A stretch of 64,000 nt of DNA from Streptomyces sp. 378 (GTDB lineage: Bacteria; Actinomycetota; Actinomycetes; Streptomycetales; Streptomycetaceae). Under the pieces are notes generated by a model. The model was not told the DNA's origin. It saw only the letters and a program-made list of their open reading frames with translations, and made no database searches. Made by a program: the position numbers and the translations under genes. The stretch spans positions 186,001-250,000 of the forward strand of contig NZ_JASKMS010000005.1 of assembly GCF_030124145.1 (NCBI RefSeq), read 5' to 3'. Below are positions 53,720 through 64,000 of the stretch, piece by piece. Numbering within the stretch: the stretch's first letter is position 1; each line of letters begins with the position of its first letter.

Positions 53720-54529
53720 GTGAGTGTGCTCGACGAGATCATCGACGGAGTCCGTGCCGACCTCGCGGAGCGGCAGGCGCGCGTCAGCCTCGACGAGCTC
53801 AAGGAGCGCGCGGCGAAGGCTCCCGCGGCCAAGGACGGCGCGGCCGCACTGCGCGGCGACGGCGTCAAGGTCATCTGTGAGGTCAAGCGCTCCAGCCCGT
53901 CCAAGGGCGCGCTGGCCGCGATCGCCGACCCGGCCGGACTCGCCGCCGACTACGAGGCGGGCGGCGCGGCCGTCATCTCCGTCCTCACCGAGGAGCGCCG
54001 CTTCGGCGGTTCGCTCGCCGACCTCGAGGCGGTCCGCGCCCGGGTGGACATCCCCGTGCTGCGCAAGGACTTCATCGTCACGTCGTACCAGCTGTGGGAG
54101 GCCCGCGCCTACGGCGCCGACGTCGTGCTGCTGATCGTCGCCGCCCTGGACCAGCCCGCCCTGGAGTCCCTCATCGAGCGCGCCGAGTCCATCGGGCTCA
54201 CACCGCTCGTGGAGGTCCACGACGAGGACGAGGTCGAGCGGGCGGTCGACGCCGGCGCCCGGGTGATCGGCGTCAACGCGCGCAACCTCAAGACCCTGGA
54301 GGTCGACCGCGGCACCTTCGAGCGGGTGGCGCCGGAGATCCCCGACCACATCATCAAGATCGCCGAGTCCGGCGTCCGCGGCCCGCACGACCTCATCGCG
54401 TACGCCAACGCCGGCGCCGACGCGGTCCTGGTCGGCGAGTCCCTCGTGACCGGCAAGGACCCCAGGACGGCGGTCTCCGACCTGGTGGCGGCCGGCGAGC
54501 ACCCCGCGCTCCGGCACGGCCGGAGCTGA
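53720..54529 (+). CDS. trpC: indole-3-glycerol-phosphate synthase TrpC
   Basis: (beta/alpha)8 barrel enzyme of tryptophan synthesis, 269 residues, starting at GTG 53720 with GGAAGGGGG upstream. Catalytic lysines lie in [15 protein letters not shown] (about residue 55) and [22 protein letters not shown] (in part; about 115); Glu and Asn in [15 protein letters not shown], and IAESGVRG near the end. It acts after PriA. It is the first gene of trpC-M-B-A. Confidence 0.96.
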
Positions 54530-54551
54530 TCACCCGCTAGGCTTGGCCCCG

Positions 54552-54770
54552 ATGACTGCCACCCTGACGACCGTGGACCGGTACGCCCGCCTCGCGCGCG
54601 GCTGCCGCCCCCGCGGCTGCCGCGCCCCGGCCCGCCGGGTCCACGGCCGCCGTGTCCGGTACGTCATCGGTGACGAACCAGGGCAGGTCAACGGCATGCG
54701 ATGGCAGCAGCGCCCCGTAGGGGGCGCGGGGAACTGCGCGACAAGCCACGAACGGCCCGCAGCCGCCTGA
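54552..54770 (+). CDS. trpM: TrpM-like small regulatory protein (formerly TrpX)
   Basis: A 72-codon frame between trpC and trpB, starting at ATG 54552 (TTG 54543 is possible). It begins MTATLTTVDRYARLARGCRP and contains RRVRYVIGDEPGQVNGMRW. In S. coelicolor the gene at this position encodes TrpM, a small protein affecting tryptophan levels and differentiation (literature knowledge; the alignment is from memory). Its last 18 or so codons coincide with a dispersed Streptomyces repeat (54711-54766), so the C-terminus QQRPVGGAGNCATSHERPAAA may be an acquired extension. Confidence 0.65.
   Translation: MTATLTTVDRYARLARGCRPRGCRAPARRVHGRRVRYVIGDEPGQVNGMRWQQRPVGGAGNCATSHERPAAA
54711..54766. repeat. 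dispersed Streptomyces intergenic repeat within trpM 3' end
   Basis: The stretch has the CGCCCC-GTAG-GGGGCG dyad followed by CGGGGAACTGCGCGACAAGC and CGGCCCGCAGCCG, a sequence type I remember as one of the most abundant intergenic repeats in Streptomyces. Here it lies inside the trpM frame and between trpM and trpB. Copy number has not been checked. Confidence 0.6.
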
Positions 54771-54826
54771 CCATCCCCGCCCCCACGGCGACCGTGCATC
54801 CGACACACTCACCGTGAGGTATTCGC

Positions 54827-56106
<1,280 letters not shown>

Positions 56107-56110
<4 letters not shown>

Positions 56111-56925
56111 GCGGGAACATCCAGCTGTTGAGCGACACCCTCGCCGCGGCGAAGTCCGAAGGGCGCTCCGCCCTCATCGCCTACCTCCCGGCCGGGTTCC
56201 CGACCGTGGACGGCGGCATCGACGCGATCAAGGCCGTCATCGACGGCGGCGCCGACGTCGTCGAGGTCGGCCTGCCGCACAGCGACCCCGTCCTCGACGG
56301 TCCCGTCATCCAGACCGCCGACGACATCGCCCTGCGCGGCGGCGTGAAGATCGCCGACGTGATGCGCACGGTCCGCGAGGCCCACCGGGCCACCGGCAAG
56401 CCGATCCTCGTCATGACGTACTGGAACCCCATCGACCGCTACGGCGTCGAGCGGTTCACCGCCGAGCTCGCCGAGGCGGGCGGCGCCGGGTGCATCCTGC
56501 CCGACCTGCCCGTACAGGAGTCGGAGGGGTGGAGGGAGCACGCGGAGAAGCACGGTCTGGCCACCGTCTTCGTCGTGGCGCCCAGCAGCAAGGACGAACG
56601 GCTCGCGCGGATCACCGCGGCCGGCAGCGGATTCGTCTACGCCGCCTCCCTCATGGGCGTCACCGGCACCCGCGCCACCGTCAGCTCGCAGGCCCAGAAC
56701 CTGGTGGAACGCACCCGGGCCACGGGAACGGAGCTGCCGGTCTGCGTCGGGCTCGGCGTCTCCACGCCCGCCCAGGCCGCCGAGGTCGCGGGCTTCGCCG
56801 ACGGCGTGATCGTCGGCTCCGCCTTCGTCAAGGCGATGCTGGACGCACCGGACGACGCGGCCGGTGTCGAGGCCGTGCGCGCACTCGCGGGCGACCTCGC
56901 GAAGGGCGTGCGCGGACAGGTGTGA
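56107..56925 (+). CDS. trpA: tryptophan synthase alpha subunit TrpA
   Basis: Cleaves indole-3-glycerol phosphate to indole, which is channelled to TrpB. 272 residues starting at GTG 56107. Catalytic Glu and Asp are in [21 protein letters not shown] (in part) and [14 protein letters not shown]; other blocks are [24 protein letters not shown] and the phosphate-binding [25 protein letters not shown] (in part). It completes the trp operon. Confidence 0.97.
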
Positions 56926-58895: not shown

Positions 58896-59711
58896 TCAGC
58901 GGCGGTCGGCCAGGGACAGGGTGCGCCGGGCCGCCGTCACCACCGCCGCGTCGATGAAGCGGCCGTCCGGGAGGGCCTGTGCGCCCCGCTCCTCGGCGGC
59001 CGCCTTCAGCACTGTCTCCGCCCGCTCGATCTCCGCCTCGGTGGGCAGATAGGCGCGTTCGATCACCGGGAGCTGCCGGGGGTGGATCGCGGCGCGGCCG
59101 AGGAAGCCCAGGGCGCGGCCGTGGGCGCAGGAGGCGGCCAGCCCGTCCAGGTCGCGGGTGTCCGGGTGGACGGACTGGGGCGGTGGGGGCAGCCCCGCGG
59201 CCCGGGCTGCCACGACCACCCGGGAGCGGGGCCAGTCGAGGCCGGTGTCGTCGCCTACGCCGAGGTCGGCCCGCAGGTCGGCCTCGCCGAGCGCGATGCC
59301 GCGCAGGTTCGGGTGGGCGCCGGCGATGGCGTACGCCTGTTCCACGGCGAGGGCCGTCTCCAGCAGGGCGTACAGGTCGGCGCGAGCGGCTCGGCGTGCG
59401 GCGCGGGTGATCTCGGCCGGTGAGGTGATCTTGGGGAGGCGGAGGCCGGAGAGCCCGGGTGCCGGGGCCAGTGCCGCCAGGTCCTGCTCGCCCCAGGGGC
59501 TGTCCAGGGCGTTGACGCGGACGTGCACCGGGACCGCCGGCGGGTTGCCGAGGAGGTCGGAGGTCGCGGCGCGGGCGTAGGCCTTGCGGTCGGGGGCGAC
59601 CGCGTCCTCCAGGTCGATGACGACGACGTCGGCGCCGCAGGTGAGGGCCTTCGCCACCACGGCGGGACGGTCGCCCGGGGCGTACAGCCAGGTGAGCGGG
59701 AACGCCGTCAC
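58896..59711 (-). CDS. CitE-type HpcH/HpaI aldolase/lyase
   Basis: A 271-residue barrel of the CitE family. Motifs: TWLYAPGDRPAVVAKAL, VVIDLEDAVAPDRKA (metal acid), the catalytic Glu in YALLETALAVEQAYAIA and the second acid in IALGEADLRADLG, plus AAIHPRQLPVIERAY. Such stand-alone proteins cleave or condense CoA esters (for example malyl- or citramalyl-CoA). GTG 59711 overlaps the CoA-transferase stop, so both are coupled and probably act on the same acyl-CoA. Exact substrate unknown. Confidence 0.88.
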   Translation of the reverse strand: MTAFPLTWLYAPGDRPAVVAKALTCGADVVVIDLEDAVAPDRKAYARAATSDLLGNPPAVPVHVRVNALDSPWGEQDLAALAPAPGLSGLRLPKITSPAEITRAARRAARADLYALLETALAVEQAYAIAGAHPNLRGIALGEADLRADLGVGDDTGLDWPRSRVVVAARAAGLPPPPQSVHPDTRDLDGLAASCAHGRALGFLGRAAIHPRQLPVIERAYLPTEAEIERAETVLKAAAEERGAQALPDGRFIDAAVVTAARRTLSLADRR

Positions 59712-60907
59712 AGGGCGCCCTCCGCGCGCAGTGCCGTCAGGTCGTCCGGTGTCAGACCCAGTTCGGTGAGGACCTCGTCGGTGTCCGCGCCGTGCGGGCG
59801 GCCGGCCCAGCGGATCGCACCGGGCGTGGCGGAGAGCCGGAAGAGGACGTTCTGCATGCGCAGCGGGCCGAGCTCGGGGTCGTCGACGGTGGTGATGGTG
59901 TCCAGGGCCTGGTACTGAGGGTCCGCCATCACGTCCTGGACGTCCTGGACCGGGGCCACCGCCGCCTCCGCCTTCTCGAAGGCGGCCATGACGTCGGCGC
60001 GGGTGCGCGCGGCGATCCAGTCGCCGACCGCCGCGTCGAGGACATCGGCGTGCCGGGCGCGGTCGGCGCCCGAGGCGAACCAGGGCTCGTCGATCAGTTC
60101 CGGGCGGCCGACCAGGCGCATCACGCGTTCCGCGACCGACTGGGCCGACGTGGAGACGGCGACCCAGGTGCCGTCCGCCGTCCGGTAGACGCCGCGCGGA
60201 GCGTTGTTGGGGGAGCGGTTGCCGGTGCGGGGCTGGATGTGGCCGAGCTGGTCGTACCAGAGGGGCTGGGGGCCCAGCGCGGCCAGGATCGGTTCGATCA
60301 GGGCCAGGTCGACGACCTGGCCCTCGCCGGTGCGCTCGCGGGCGGCGAGCGCCGTCATCACGGCGTACGCCGTCGTCAGACCCGCGATGGAGTCGGCCAG
60401 GCCGAAGGGCGGGAGGGTCGGGGGCGCGTCCGGTTCGCCGGTGATCGCGGCGAAGCCGCTCATCGCCTCGGCGAGGGTCCCGAAGCCGGGGCGGTGCGCG
60501 GAGGGGCCGAACTGGCCGAAGCCGGTGACGCGGGCCAGGACCAGCCGGGGGTTGACGGCCGACAGCTCCGGCCAGCCGAGGTCCCACTTCTCCAGGGTGC
60601 CGGGGCGGAAGTTCTCGATGACCACGTCGGCGGTCTCGGCCAGGCGCAGGAGCGTGGTGCGGCCGCCGGGCTTGGACAGGTCGAGCGTCATGGTGCGCTT
60701 GTTGCGGCCGAGCATCTTCCACCACAGGCCCACGCCGTCCTTCGACGGGCCGTGGCCACGGGAGGGGTCCGGCTTCCTCGGGTGCTCGATCTTGACGACC
60801 TCGGCGCCGAAGTCGCCGAGCAGGGTGGCGGCCATCGGGCCGGCGAAGAGGGTGGCCAGGTCGAGGACGCGCAGGCCGCTGAGGGGCGTGGTCGTGGGCG
60901 CGGTCAT
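59708..60907 (-). CDS. class III (CaiB/Frc/BaiF) CoA-transferase
   Basis: A 399-residue protein. N-terminal LSGLRVLDLATLFAGPMAATLLGDFGAEVVKIEHP (in part) is the family hallmark; RNKRTMTLDLSKPGG binds CoA; the catalytic Asp lies in FGLADSIAGLTTAYA (about residue 172); the C-terminal lobe has AFEKAEAAVAPVQDV. It moves CoA between carboxylic acids. ATG 60907 overlaps the stop of the ADP-ribosylglycohydrolase gene upstream (ATGA), and its stop overlaps the CitE start. Confidence 0.9.
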   Translation of the reverse strand: MTAPTTTPLSGLRVLDLATLFAGPMAATLLGDFGAEVVKIEHPRKPDPSRGHGPSKDGVGLWWKMLGRNKRTMTLDLSKPGGRTTLLRLAETADVVIENFRPGTLEKWDLGWPELSAVNPRLVLARVTGFGQFGPSAHRPGFGTLAEAMSGFAAITGEPDAPPTLPPFGLADSIAGLTTAYAVMTALAARERTGEGQVVDLALIEPILAALGPQPLWYDQLGHIQPRTGNRSPNNAPRGVYRTADGTWVAVSTSAQSVAERVMRLVGRPELIDEPWFASGADRARHADVLDAAVGDWIAARTRADVMAAFEKAEAAVAPVQDVQDVMADPQYQALDTITTVDDPELGPLRMQNVLFRLSATPGAIRWAGRPHGADTDEVLTELGLTPDDLTALRAEGAL

Positions 60908-62265
60908 GGGCGGAGGGTCTCCCGGTGCGTGAGGTGGGCGAGGGTGTCGAAGCCGATGCCGTTGAAGTCGCCGACGGATGTCGACAGCCGGTTCTTCAGG
61001 GGCGCCGTCCAGCGGTCGGGGAGCGCCCCGGGGTGCCCTGCCAGCAGTCCGGCGATGCCGCCGGCCGTCGCGCCGTTGGAGTCGGTGTCCCAGCCGCCGC
61101 TCACGACACGGCAGACGGAGCCGGCGAAGTCGCCGTTCGCGTGGGTGAGGGCGGCGGCGATCAGGGCGGTGTTGGGGACGGCGTGCACCCAGTGGTGGGT
61201 GTCGGCGTGGCGGGCGTGGAGTGCGTCGACGACCGTGTCGAAGTCTTCGTGCTCGTGCGCCAGCCGGACGGCCTCGCGAACGGCCCGGGCCAGGCGCGAG
61301 CGGGGTGGGACGACGGTGAGGCCGGTCCGCAGGCAGGTGTGGACGTCGTGTGCGCCGGTCGCCGCGGCGGCGATTCCGGCCGCCGCGAACATGGCCGCGT
61401 AGACGCCGTTGGCGGTGTGGGTCAAGGTGGCGTCCCGGTGGGCCTGTTCGGCGGCCGCGGCCGGGTCGCCGGGGTTGGTCCAGCCGTGGATGTCGGCGCG
61501 GATCAGGGCGCCGATCCATTCCCGGAACGGGTTGCGGTGGCGGGCGGTGTGCGGGGGTTCGAGGCCGCAGAGCAGGTTGCGGTAGGCGATGCGCTCGGCG
61601 GTGAAGGTGCGGCCGGCGGGGAGTTCGTCGAGCCAGGTCCGGGCCACGTCCGTGGAGGTGAAGGCCCTGCCGTGGCGTTGGAGGAGGACGAGGTTGAGCA
61701 GGGGGTAGTTGAGGTCGTCGTCCTCGGGCATGCCGTCGATGTTCTCGGCGAGGGAGGTGTGCGCCGAGCGGCGGTTCCAGGGGTGGCGTCTCAGGAGTTC
61801 CTCGGGGACGCCCCGGGCGGTGAAGTAGCCGGCGAGGGGCCAGTTTCCGGAGGCCCGGGCGAGTCGGCGGATGGCGTCGAGGGGGAGCTTCTCGACGGGT
61901 TTGCCCAGCAGGCAGCCGGTGGCGCGGCCGAGCCAGGCGGCTTCGAGGTGCTGCGGGGTCGTGGCCCCCGGGCCCGCGGGTCCGGGCCAGTCGGGGCAGG
62001 CGGCCTTGATCCTCGCCAGGTCGGTCGGTTCGTCGTCGGCCAACGCGCTGGGCAGGTCGGCCAGTTCGTCCAGGAGGTCCTTCGCCAGCCGGCGCAGGGA
62101 GCGGGAGGCCGGGGTGGGGGACGCGCCCGCTGCGGCCGGAGCCTGCGGGCCGCCTGCCGCTCGCCAGCGTGCTGCGACGTGCTTCGGCTCGCGTCCGTCC
62201 TGGGCCGCCTGGCGGAGTTCATGGCCGATCAGGTCCTCCGGCTGGATCCAGGTCAGTCGGAGCAT
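60904..62265 (-). CDS. ADP-ribosylglycohydrolase family protein 1 (DraG-like)
   Basis: A 453-residue DraG/ARH-type protein starting at ATG 62265, overlapping the upstream family member by 13 bases. After a divergent N-terminal part (about 110 residues), AAWLGRATGCLLGKPVEKLP is the family entry block, EDDDLNYPLLNL supplies the first acidic metal set and SGGWDTDSNGATAGGIAGLL (DTDS motif, C-terminal) the second, so the di-metal site looks intact. It should remove ADP-ribose from protein, DNA or a small molecule; the target is unknown. It is followed directly by CoA-transferase and CitE genes. Confidence 0.85.
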   Translation of the reverse strand: MLRLTWIQPEDLIGHELRQAAQDGREPKHVAARWRAAGGPQAPAAAGASPTPASRSLRRLAKDLLDELADLPSALADDEPTDLARIKAACPDWPGPAGPGATTPQHLEAAWLGRATGCLLGKPVEKLPLDAIRRLARASGNWPLAGYFTARGVPEELLRRHPWNRRSAHTSLAENIDGMPEDDDLNYPLLNLVLLQRHGRAFTSTDVARTWLDELPAGRTFTAERIAYRNLLCGLEPPHTARHRNPFREWIGALIRADIHGWTNPGDPAAAAEQAHRDATLTHTANGVYAAMFAAAGIAAAATGAHDVHTCLRTGLTVVPPRSRLARAVREAVRLAHEHEDFDTVVDALHARHADTHHWVHAVPNTALIAAALTHANGDFAGSVCRVVSGGWDTDSNGATAGGIAGLLAGHPGALPDRWTAPLKNRLSTSVGDFNGIGFDTLAHLTHRETLRP

Positions 62266-63422
62266 TCCCGGCCTCCGAGGGACGCGAAGGCCTGCTCGTG
62301 GGCGCGGCGGCGAGCCACGTCGCGGGTGAAGATCTCGCGGGTCACGGCGGTGAGGGTGGCCGCCGGTTCCCACAGGTCCAGACGGCTCGCCTCCGCGACC
62401 GTCTTGGCCCAGTCCTCCGGGACCGGGGAGCCCAGGGCGCCGGCCAGGGCGCCGGCCATCGTGGCGATGGAGTCGCAGTCGCGGCCGTAGTTCACCGCGC
62501 CGAGGACCGTGTGGCGGTAGTCGCCGCGCGCCACGAGCAACAGGCCCAGCGCGACCGGGAGTTCCTCGATGGAGTGGAGGCGGGACGGCCGGCGGGCGCC
62601 GAGCGAGGGGGCGCGGTAGTCCGGGCCCACCGTGTCGTAGGGGGCCACGGCCTCGCGCAGCGGGCGCAGTGCCGACTCGAAGTCCGGGTGGCGGGACGCC
62701 TCCTCGCAGACCCGCTCGATCGCGGTCCGGGTGCCGTCCTTCGCCAGGGAGAGGCAGGCCGAGACCACCGAGTCCGGGGTCGCGCCGGGGGTGCACGCCG
62801 CCGCCACCGCGGCGGCCAGGACGCCCGCGGCCTCACGGCCGTACGACGACTGGTGTGCACCGGCGATGTCCAGGGCCTCGGCGTACGCCGCCCTCGGGTC
62901 GGCCGCGTTGACCAGGCCGACCGGGGCCGTGTACATCGCCGCGCCGCAGTTGACGATGTTGCCGGTGCCGGCCTCGCGCGGGTCGGCATGGCCGTAGTGG
63001 ATCCGTGTCACCAGCCACTTCTCCGCCAGGAAGATCCGCTGCAGGGGCAGGGCCCGCGTCTCCAGTTCCGGGATCCAGCGCGGCTCGGTCATCAGGTCCG
63101 GGACCAGGTGGTCGGCGATCGCGTAGGCGTCGAGGTGGTCGCGGACCCGGGCGTAGACGCGGACCAGGGCGTGGGTCATCAAAGTGTCGTCGGTGACGTG
63201 GCCGTCGCCCTTGTGGTAGGGGGCGAGGGGGCGGGCCGTGCGCCAGTCGTCGCCGTGCCAGGGGCCGACGATGCCGTGGACGCGACCGCCGTGGCGTTCG
63301 AGGATCTGCTCGGGTGAGTAGCCCTCGACGGGACCGCCGAGCGCGTCGCCGACCGCTGCTCCTACCAGCGCTCCGGTGATCCGCTCGTCCAGAGTGGCGT
63401 TTTGGTGTGGTTTGGGCTGCAT
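62253..63422 (-). CDS. ADP-ribosylglycohydrolase family protein 2 (DraG-like)
   Basis: A 389-residue protein from ATG 63422 (GTG 63437 in frame adds five residues and would overlap the upstream stop). The DraG pattern is complete: ERITGALVGAAVGDALGGPVEGY at the N-terminus (in part), the TDDT motif in DGHVTDDTLMTHALVRVY (about residue 78), and C-terminal NYGRDCDSIATMAGALAGALG (in part) with the second acidic set. It contains a long insertion around ETRALPLQRIFLAEKW. Substrate unknown. It is coupled to family member 1 downstream. Confidence 0.87.
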   Translation of the reverse strand: MQPKPHQNATLDERITGALVGAAVGDALGGPVEGYSPEQILERHGGRVHGIVGPWHGDDWRTARPLAPYHKGDGHVTDDTLMTHALVRVYARVRDHLDAYAIADHLVPDLMTEPRWIPELETRALPLQRIFLAEKWLVTRIHYGHADPREAGTGNIVNCGAAMYTAPVGLVNAADPRAAYAEALDIAGAHQSSYGREAAGVLAAAVAAACTPGATPDSVVSACLSLAKDGTRTAIERVCEEASRHPDFESALRPLREAVAPYDTVGPDYRAPSLGARRPSRLHSIEELPVALGLLLVARGDYRHTVLGAVNYGRDCDSIATMAGALAGALGSPVPEDWAKTVAEASRLDLWEPAATLTAVTREIFTRDVARRRAHEQAFASLGGRECSD

Positions 63423-63429
63423 GGCCGCA

Positions 63430-64000
63430 TCATCCACCCGGGCGGGCCGGTTGGACGGCTTCCAGGAGTTCGGCGAGTTCCACGAGGTCCGTGCCGGTCA
63501 GGCGGGGGAGGACGCAGCCGGAGAGGGTGCGGCAGGTGTCCCGCCAGGAGGCGGGGATCGACGCGCCGCCGCCCAGGGCGCCGGTGAGGGCACCCGCGAG
63601 GGCCGGGGCGGAGTCCGCGACGCGGGACAGGCAGGCCGCCGCGGGGAGCGCCTCCGCGATGCGGCCGCGGGCGGCGGTGGCCAGGGCGAGGGCGACCGGG
63701 ACGGTTTCGGCGGCGGCGATGCCGTAGCTGTAGACGTGGTCGACGATCTGGTGCTCCAGGGGCGGGACCAGGGCGAAGGCGCCGTCCGCGGCAGTGGCGA
63801 GTTCCAGGGCGTGCCGGGCGTTGCGGCCGATCTCCGTCTCCTCGGGGAGTTCGGCCAGGGCCGCCGTGACACAGGCGTCGACGTCCGCGCCGGCCAGGGC
63901 GAGGGCGAGTGCCGCCGCCATGGCGCGGGCGCCGTGGACGCCGTCGCCGTCCTGGGTGTAGCGGGCGTCGAACTCGGCGAGGTCGGCGGCGGAGCGGGGG
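63430..64000 (-). CDS. ADP-ribosylglycohydrolase family protein 3 (5' end outside window)
   Basis: The frame is open through the right edge (base 64000), so the start lies outside; about 190 C-terminal codons are visible. Helical Ala-rich sequence with DGDGVHGARAMAAALALALAG resembles the DGVxGxxFxAAxxAAA block of DraG proteins. The usual C-terminal GGDTDT metal motif is replaced by LSRVADSAPALAGALTGALG, so the metal site may be weakened. It is the first seen gene of the coupled operon reading leftward. Confidence 0.75.
   Translation of the reverse strand, partial: PRSAADLAEFDARYTQDGDGVHGARAMAAALALALAGADVDACVTAALAELPEETEIGRNARHALELATAADGAFALVPPLEHQIVDHVYSYGIAAAETVPVALALATAARGRIAEALPAAACLSRVADSAPALAGALTGALGGGASIPASWRDTCRTLSGCVLPRLTGTDLVELAELLEAVQPARPGG

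Follow-up and report, generated by a model that had tools for sequence, protein, structure and literature searches.

In Escherichia coli, the yegTUV operon combines a nucleoside transporter, an ADP-ribosylglycohydrolase and a PfkB kinase, and its function is given as unknown (PMC10819704). In Streptomyces coelicolor, SCO2028 to SCO2031 belong to a set of eight listed, uncharacterised homologues of the DraG/ARH glycohydrolases (PMC9411070 includes all four of them, PMC5087735 three), and the authors list the S. coelicolor DraG homologues as putative ADP-ribosyl hydrolases (PMC5087735, PMC9411070). Two of these proteins, SCO2028 and SCO2030, showed no detectable activity on U-alpha-ADP-ribose (PMC13036486). 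Here we describe six coupled minus-strand genes at the right edge of a 64,000-nucleotide stretch of a Streptomyces genome of 8.67 Mb (hereafter the window; genome G000, contig C45, positions 186001-250000). From 5' to 3' they encode four DraG-family proteins (DraG-D, DraG-C, DraG-B and DraG-A), a class III coenzyme A (CoA) transferase (CoA-T) and a CitE-like lyase. We read this operon, with a probability of about 0.58, as a reduced version, in Streptomyces, of a catabolic operon whose DraG-family enzymes would cut an imported ribofuranoside carrying an acid part. Its genes are as follows.

58896-59711, minus strand: CitE-like C-C lyase gene, 271 amino acids, GTG start; PF03328, 128 bits.
59708-60907, minus strand: class III (CaiB/BaiF) CoA-transferase gene, 399 amino acids; PF02515, 420.8 bits against a cut-off of 23.3.
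60904-62265, minus strand: DraG-A, 453 amino acids; PF03747, 170.6 bits over residues 109-413, with the motifs PEDDDLN and GWDTDS.
62253-63437, minus strand: DraG-B, 394 amino acids; PF03747, 170.9 bits, canonical motif residues all kept.
63430-64000 in the window, minus strand: DraG-C, 412 amino acids; PF03747, 121.1 bits; the whole gene spans 63430-64668 in continued numbering.
64665-65672 in continued numbering (L009:7666-8673), minus strand, wholly past the window edge: DraG-D, 335 amino acids; PF03747, 202.8 bits.

The six-gene operon is real and conserved beyond what chance would give. Its genes overlap throughout, by 4 bp (DraG-D/DraG-C), 8 bp (DraG-C/DraG-B, with the GTG at 63437 used as the DraG-B start; an alternative ATG lies at 63422), 13 bp (DraG-B/DraG-A) and 4 bp at each of the last two junctions (DraG-A/CoA-T and CoA-T/CitE). 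An earlier note on this DNA, made from the sequence alone, had joined the CoA-transferase, the lyase and the DraG-like genes by overlaps, and the 4, 4 and 13 bp found on the minus strand bear this out. Its count of three DraG genes was one too low: the third crosses the window edge, and a fourth, DraG-D, lies beyond it. Because the next gene on the right (VIT1 family) is divergent, we place the operon start at DraG-D, 1.7 kb past the right edge. All six proteins pass their Pfam cut-offs by a wide margin (26.2 bits for PF03747), and four of the eight PF03747 matches in this genome lie in the operon.

Within a class-wide sample of 148 genomes, DraG-A had a match at E<=1e-3 in 29 and a long orthologue (at least 54% identity) in 23, and in 22 of these 23 a CitE match lay downstream on the same strand and contig, at 1.2 to 4.2 kb (the exception is G121). 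A scan of named genomes with DraG-B confirmed at least 582 relatives; the closest named matches, among those listed, were from Streptomyces species at 91-95% identity. The best 80 loci were analysed, several of them short contigs, 79 labelled Streptomyces and one 'Actinobacteria bacterium'. DraG-A and CoA-T were both present in 76 of these 80, with identical gene order in 76/76, while CitE was found in 75/80 and all four DraG genes in 69/80. By the earlier note, its reading would have been refuted if the five genes did not stay together in other genomes; the CitE placements and gene orders show that they do. Of 150 genomes from the genus, 110 had DraG-B (E<=1e-100) and 118 had CoA-T; the latter count takes in more distant paralogues, for example in G556, G596, G599 and G625. 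Both genes were present in 106 genomes, DraG-B only in four, CoA-T only in 12 and neither in 28 (Fisher p 7e-17, uncorrected for relatedness). DraG-B and CoA-T lie 4.8 Mb apart on one contig in G524.

A fuller version of the operon was found in two other actinomycete families, in seven loci (L075, L076, L088, L089 and L094 of family f19; L080 and L081 of family f17). Its order is LacI-type regulator, two permeases, binding protein, DraG D-C-B-A, PfkB kinase, CoA-T and CitE; in non-annotated loci, genes were called by codon preference with approximate starts, and labels come from BLAST to the query proteins and from Pfam where scanned. In line with a suggestion of the earlier note, the hydrolases belong to what appears to be a small-molecule degradation pathway. 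Besides the seven, the regulator and importer were present in L082, L085, L199 and the annotated alphaproteobacterial loci described below. L082 and L085 have the regulator, importer and DraG genes and neither a kinase nor CoA genes within the region covered, which in L082 ends within DraG-A. For the two LacI proteins scanned, the best models were ribose repressors, at scores under the cut-off, and the operon kinase exceeded the ribokinase cut-off (TIGR02152, 299.65) in L075 (312.4 bits) and L092 (308.5 bits).

The f19 loci show further features. Three of the five operons carry a protein of 625-667 amino acids between kinase and CoA-T (L075:12030-14033, L076:8208-10127, L089:8523-10400), whose C-terminal domain is of FGE/EgtB type (PF03781); its N-terminal half resembles a glycosidase barrel by eye and has no Pfam match. 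At L084:2648-5638, an FGE/EgtB-type protein is fused in one frame behind the kinase, likewise ahead of CoA-T. One f19 genome has a second DraG cluster (L077, G134:C1:6280000-6299999), with an importer, a LacI-type gene, a relative of DraG-A and a D-C pair in divergent orientation, adjoining an alpha-amylase-type gene.

From this gene content we propose the following mechanism. In the full form, a CUT1-type sugar ATP-binding cassette (ABC) importer, accompanied by a LacI-type regulator, would bring in a compound in which a non-sugar acid is most likely linked to ribofuranose (or a close pentofuranose), and DraG-family glycohydrolases would cut it inside the cell. DraG-A, DraG-B and DraG-D are presumed to be active di-metal enzymes that differ in linkage or intermediate specificity, and DraG-C a non-catalytic partner of DraG-D. 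The operon ribokinase would phosphorylate the freed ribose, the class III CoA-transferase would activate the freed hydroxy acid, probably from succinyl-CoA, and the CitE-like lyase would split the acyl-CoA into acetyl-CoA and a 2-oxo acid. In the window genome, where importer, regulator and ribokinase do not lie beside the operon, the compound presumably arises or enters otherwise, and the ribokinase would be supplied from elsewhere in the genome; a signalling role may apply to this Streptomyces version, in which no importer is seen. The sequences show the gene content and order, their conservation, the protein families, the motif loss and the purifying selection, whereas all reactions, the furanoside character of the substrate and the pairing of C with D are inferred. 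The parts of this proposal differ in strength: gene context gives fairly good support for a catabolic role, moderate support for ribose as the sugar moiety, and weak support for an acid as part of the substrate. A more specific version would be an undescribed pathway of soil- and plant-associated bacteria for a hydroxy-di(or tri)carboxylic acid conjugated to a ribofuranosyl group, with DraG furanosidases, an obligate pair of active D and inactive C, ribokinase, CoA transfer and a citramalyl/malyl-type cleavage to acetyl-CoA; we offer it tentatively, and on balance regard it as doubtful.

Not all Streptomyces loci have the kinase. Of the 76 loci with both DraG-A and CoA-T, 39 carry a ribokinase gene between the two; at a looser threshold, with the window and three further genomes of the genus added, the count is 42/80 (including a remnant in L149), with at least seven state changes on a quick tree. 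The remnant, at about 12696-12959 of L149, occupies the DraG-A/CoA-T slot and suggests loss in progress. The best ribokinase match of the window genome lies elsewhere (G000:C25) and scores 296.9 bits, slightly below the cut-off. The window operon, which lacks this gene, thus looks trimmed.

The four DraG proteins were also compared by their motifs. The first-motif Glu, the DD pair and the DxD(S/T) motif, which we take to be the di-metal ligand positions of DraG and ARH3 (two of the motifs were aligned here to DraG), are all retained in the readable rows of DraG-A, DraG-B and DraG-D. DraG-A has an N-terminal extension of about 100 residues ahead of the PF03747 domain and shows EDDD at the position of TDDT. 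In DraG-C, the first Asp of DxDS is replaced in 16/16 aligned rows, with the final DS retained, and 12 of the 14 rows that are readable at the first motif, including the window copy, have lost its Glu (it is retained in L078 and L079, and the motif is unreadable in L088 and L094); the DD pair is retained in the DraG-C rows (L088 unreadable). The differing metal-site completeness reported in the earlier note thus holds for DraG-C and not for the other three proteins, which keep their motifs.

The degenerate ADS motif of DraG-C is invariant across 23 Streptomyces sequences, and the gene is under purifying selection, with a median ratio of non-synonymous to synonymous substitution rates (dN/dS) of 0.17 over 75 comparisons. 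Median values for the other genes are 0.14 (DraG-D), 0.20 (DraG-B), 0.23 (CoA-T), 0.30 (CitE) and 0.31 (DraG-A). A decaying pseudogene was considered for DraG-C and is rejected on this value, which lies below those of DraG-A, DraG-B, CoA-T and CitE. The D-C pair also recurs in L077-L079, loci that encode a LacI-type protein and a binding protein. Because DraG-C has lost metal ligands yet is strongly conserved, we read it as probably a pseudoenzyme partner of DraG-D. Predicted structures were of low confidence, with a mean predicted local distance difference test score (pLDDT) of 59.4 for DraG-A and 58.2 for DraG-C from shallow, Streptomyces-only alignments. A Foldseek search with the DraG-C model returned mostly ARH3/DraG entries at the top, none at E <= 0.001, which would agree weakly with the family fold.

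Related operons occur on alphaproteobacterial plasmids. A search of plasmid records with DraG-B returned 21 records, of which 20 belong to alphaproteobacterial genera and one is a Nonomuraea replicon (11.85 Mb). Seventeen of these were compared (16 alphaproteobacterial and Nonomuraea); eight of the 16 are annotated. Ensifer adhaerens contributes five plasmids to the 16, so that the counts are not independent. The eight annotated loci share the order LacI, two permeases, binding protein and DraG-B, with a UgpC-type ATPase in 7/8; in L202 the LacI gene is split and DraG-B partly unannotated. By tblastn, a permease lies upstream of DraG-B in 16/16 loci and a DraG-A homologue downstream in 14/16 (not in Pseudochrobactrum L196 and L211). 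LacI was matched in 6/16 and the binding protein in 0/16, because these sequences are distant. CoA-T was found in 10/16 loci and CitE also in 9/16 (L206 lacks CitE even at E<=1). A kinase match was full-length and in line in L198, full-length and divergent in L201, and a fragment in L195. The rhizobial DraG-A homologue measures 689-699 amino acids in five intact annotated cases; it carries about 400 extra C-terminal residues (L197:13136-15235, L200:13116-15185) with a weak LamG/SHBG-like match (E 0.006).

Phylogenetic trees were used to compare the operons of the two phyla. The DraG tree took its rhizobial rows from the four loci L196, L197, L198 and L200, using residues 1-330 of the second DraG gene. 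It leaves out L082_0 and L088_6 to L088_9, which were truncated or misread, as well as all rows from L091 and L093. DraG-A grouped with the rhizobial second DraG (support 100/99), DraG-B with the rhizobial first DraG (100/100), and DraG-C and DraG-D formed branches with supports of 98/95 and 82/84; the program warned that some long branches meet. This topology suggests that DraG-A and DraG-B are old lineages common to both phyla, with C and D as separate lineages, seen here in actinomycetes. A DraG-A-like paralogue of the window genome (L007, G000:C3:113003-114007), 47% identical to DraG-A, falls within the A branch and groups with the DraG-A of the second cluster of G134.

The CoA-transferases appear to have a different history. 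Their tree was made by a quick method, is unrooted, and includes five of the ten rhizobial CoA-T proteins and an L086 row represented by its last 400 residues; in it, the DraG-linked proteins of actinomycetes lie far from those of rhizobia, and the actinomycete DraG-linked group has a weak support of 13. Rhizobial and Streptomyces operon CoA-T are only about 45% identical. The rhizobial proteins are 69-74% identical to DraG-less proteins of Aureimonas, Pararhizobium and Shinella, and the Streptomyces protein is 72-73% identical to those of G071 and G056, which have no DraG genes nearby, and 63-65% identical to proteins of Burkholderia, Nonomuraea (away from its DraG cluster) and a Rhodococcus plasmid (63%, DraG-less). 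Because the CoA-T of each phylum has closer DraG-less relatives than that of the other phylum, two separate recruitments to DraG operons fit these data best; a single old DraG/CoA-T link that was lost many times may also explain them.

The DraG-less relatives of the CoA genes offer clues to their role. Pairs related to CoA-T and CitE sit beside a DctM-type transporter in L078 and L083 (L086 has an unscanned gene of similar size) and beside cyclase and MmgE/PrpD genes in L087, L090 and the Rhodococcus plasmid L223. Relatives of the pair in Aureimonas, Pararhizobium and Shinella are accompanied by a hydroxyacid dehydrogenase, an iron-type ABC transporter and a protein of the RraA family. Such contexts suggest di- or tricarboxylic acids that are branched or hydroxylated. 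Close relatives of the CoA enzymes sit without DraG genes in operons that seem meant for free carboxylic acids, and we therefore take these enzymes to be a probable downstream module acting on the acid part of the substrate; the CoA-linked hydrolase substrate raised in the earlier note finds no support. On one contig in L078, about 8 kb separate the CoA-T/CitE pair from a DraG D-C pair. A haloarchaeal CoA-T relative (L224, Haloferax alexandrinus plasmid) adjoins genes annotated as 3-hydroxy-3-methylglutaryl-CoA (HMG-CoA) lyase and isopropylmalate dehydratase subunits.

We also asked whether enzyme models would name the pathway, and this was ruled out. The best NCBIfam model for CoA-T is succinate--glutarate CoA-transferase (240.9 against a cut-off of 750), and the CitE-like protein reaches neither the RipC/Ccl citramalyl-CoA lyase cut-off (NF038242, 153.5 against 375) nor that of citrate lyase beta (TIGR01588, 138 against 443.4). 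Because the two proteins miss all equivalog cut-offs, we claim no named pathway. An anti-phage defence system was likewise considered and rejected, with PADLOC models matching 0 families for 6/6 operon proteins.

On its left, the operon is flanked by lgt on the other strand and a thioredoxin-like gene, and on its right by the VIT1 family gene, gltB, gltD, a TerF-like vWA gene, cytochrome b and acyl-CoA dehydrogenase genes. Genes of trpC, trpB and trpA type lie at 53720-56925 of the window. SCO2028-SCO2031 of S. coelicolor are likewise four consecutive DraG homologues near trp genes, and on these grounds they are presumably orthologues of the four DraG genes of the window. SCO2038 is trpX (PMC5036795), and the two mentions of 'SCO2028' in that paper look like a slip for SCO2038.

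Several results weigh against our reading. Concerning uptake, neither the importer nor the LacI protein of L075 has a match at E<=1e-20 in the best 80 Streptomyces loci or in the window operon, and in the PDB the binding protein has generic sugar binders as its relatives. The window operon has no ribokinase gene, as CoA-T directly follows DraG-A with the 4-bp overlap, and about half of the Streptomyces loci are without one. The operon kinase falls below the ribokinase cut-off in L084 (261.3) and in the Agrobacterium locus L198 (279.4), and the specificity of a PfkB protein is not readable from a family score alone. The earlier note had held that a nucleoside/kinase operon unlinked to the CoA genes would speak against a joint pathway. 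A sugar-uptake and ribokinase operon was indeed seen, joined to the CoA genes in the seven full loci, and unlinked forms exist as well: Nonomuraea gerenzanensis (L199) has LacI, importer, DraG D-C-B-A and ribokinase with no CoA-T or CitE match at the locus, the DraG locus of G121 (L085) has importer and DraG genes without CoA-T/CitE, and 6/16 alphaproteobacterial loci are without CoA-T. Rhizobial CitE is only 30-35% identical to that of the window (43% over one short piece). A phylum-wide search with a DraG-B profile at E<=1e-40 matched 10/396 genomes, all of the window's genus, and added no new genera. The inactivity of SCO2028 and SCO2030 on U-alpha-ADP-ribose is not informative on other ADP-ribosylated substrates.

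Two alternatives keep the idea of sugar catabolism and change the substrate. The operon could serve ordinary ribonucleoside scavenging, with a nucleoside taken in, its base removed and the ribose passed to ribokinase, the CoA genes being a captured, unrelated module. This would match yegTUV, which has the same make-up of transporter, DraG-family and PfkB genes (PMC10819704), and the loci with importer and DraG genes that have no CoA-T or CitE. Four hydrolases, however, are many for plain nucleosides, and CoA-T was apparently recruited to DraG operons twice and overlaps DraG-A here. CUT1 importers, moreover, usually take sugars or glycosides, and we regard the nucleoside alternative as unlikely. 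Less likely still is an oligosaccharide or glycoside with a furanose other than ribose (e.g., arabinofuranose), on which both the kinase and the DraG enzymes would act. The sugar-type importer, the barrel-like protein of three f19 operons, the extension of the rhizobial second DraG gene with its weak LamG-type match and the presence of an arabino-oligosaccharide binder (6rjy) among the binding-protein relatives are all compatible with such a substrate, but the kinase exceeds the ribokinase cut-off in two loci.

A further alternative is that the four hydrolases reverse protein or nucleic-acid ADP-ribosylation or clear ADP-ribose metabolites, with the CoA genes as co-expressed housekeeping genes or hitch-hikers. 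Membership of PF03747, the DraG/ARH-family identity of the solved structures that match DraG-D, and the listing of the S. coelicolor homologues by their authors (PMC5087735, PMC9411070) favour this role. Against it, no ADP-ribosyltransferase domain was found in the eight flanking genes (20 kb around the operon; the remaining genome was not searched for one), which agrees with the earlier note also after extension to the right past the operon start. All four proteins fall below the cut-offs of the DraG sensu stricto equivalog (TIGR02662, best 82.7 for DraG-D against 337.05) and of the Tri1-type ADP-ribosylarginine hydrolase (NF041672, best 47.4 for DraG-D against 490). In addition, a sugar importer and ribokinase accompany DraG genes elsewhere, and SCO2028 and SCO2030 were inactive on U-alpha-ADP-ribose (PMC13036486). 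We consider reversal of ADP-ribosylation improbable. A chance or loose neighbourhood of unrelated genes is very improbable: only the loci of G121 and G524, in which the CoA genes are apart, speak for it, against placement kept in 22/23 and 76/76 cases, recurrence across phyla and median dN/dS of 0.14-0.31 for the six genes.

A catabolic role would fit the finding of no transferase among the neighbouring genes and the lack of activity of SCO2028 and SCO2030 in the published assay. If it is true, four of the eight S. coelicolor DraG/ARH homologues would be sugar-catabolic enzymes rather than candidate ADP-ribosyl hydrolases, and a fold known for reversing signals would extend to sugar catabolism, with a conserved pseudoenzyme partner. 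The binding protein of the importer offers a direct route to the identity of the substrate.

Compared with described systems, the operon combines features of several. All four DraG proteins share PF03747 with the DraG/ARH family (R. rubrum DraG, human ARH3 and Tri1), and DraG-A, DraG-B and DraG-D share the Glu, DD and DxD(S/T) motifs; unlike those enzymes, they have relatives in a sugar-uptake operon and no transferase nearby, miss the equivalog cut-offs, and include in DraG-C a member without metal ligands. We found no description of the context of this operon in the open-access literature, and the accessible parts of the papers on SCO2028-SCO2031 do not describe a context with CoA-T, CitE, ribokinase or importer. 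The pairing of a class III CoA-transferase with a CitE-type lyase is the same as in itaconate/citramalate and malyl-CoA type pathways; unlike those pairs, the proteins score below the RipC, CitE, mesaconate, oxalate, carnitine and succinate-glutarate models, and the operon is without a hydratase. Finally, yegTUV differs in its single DraG gene, nucleoside-type major facilitator superfamily (MFS) transporter, GntR regulator and lack of CoA-T/CitE in the operon, but it shares the logic of a transporter, a DraG-family gene and a sugar kinase.

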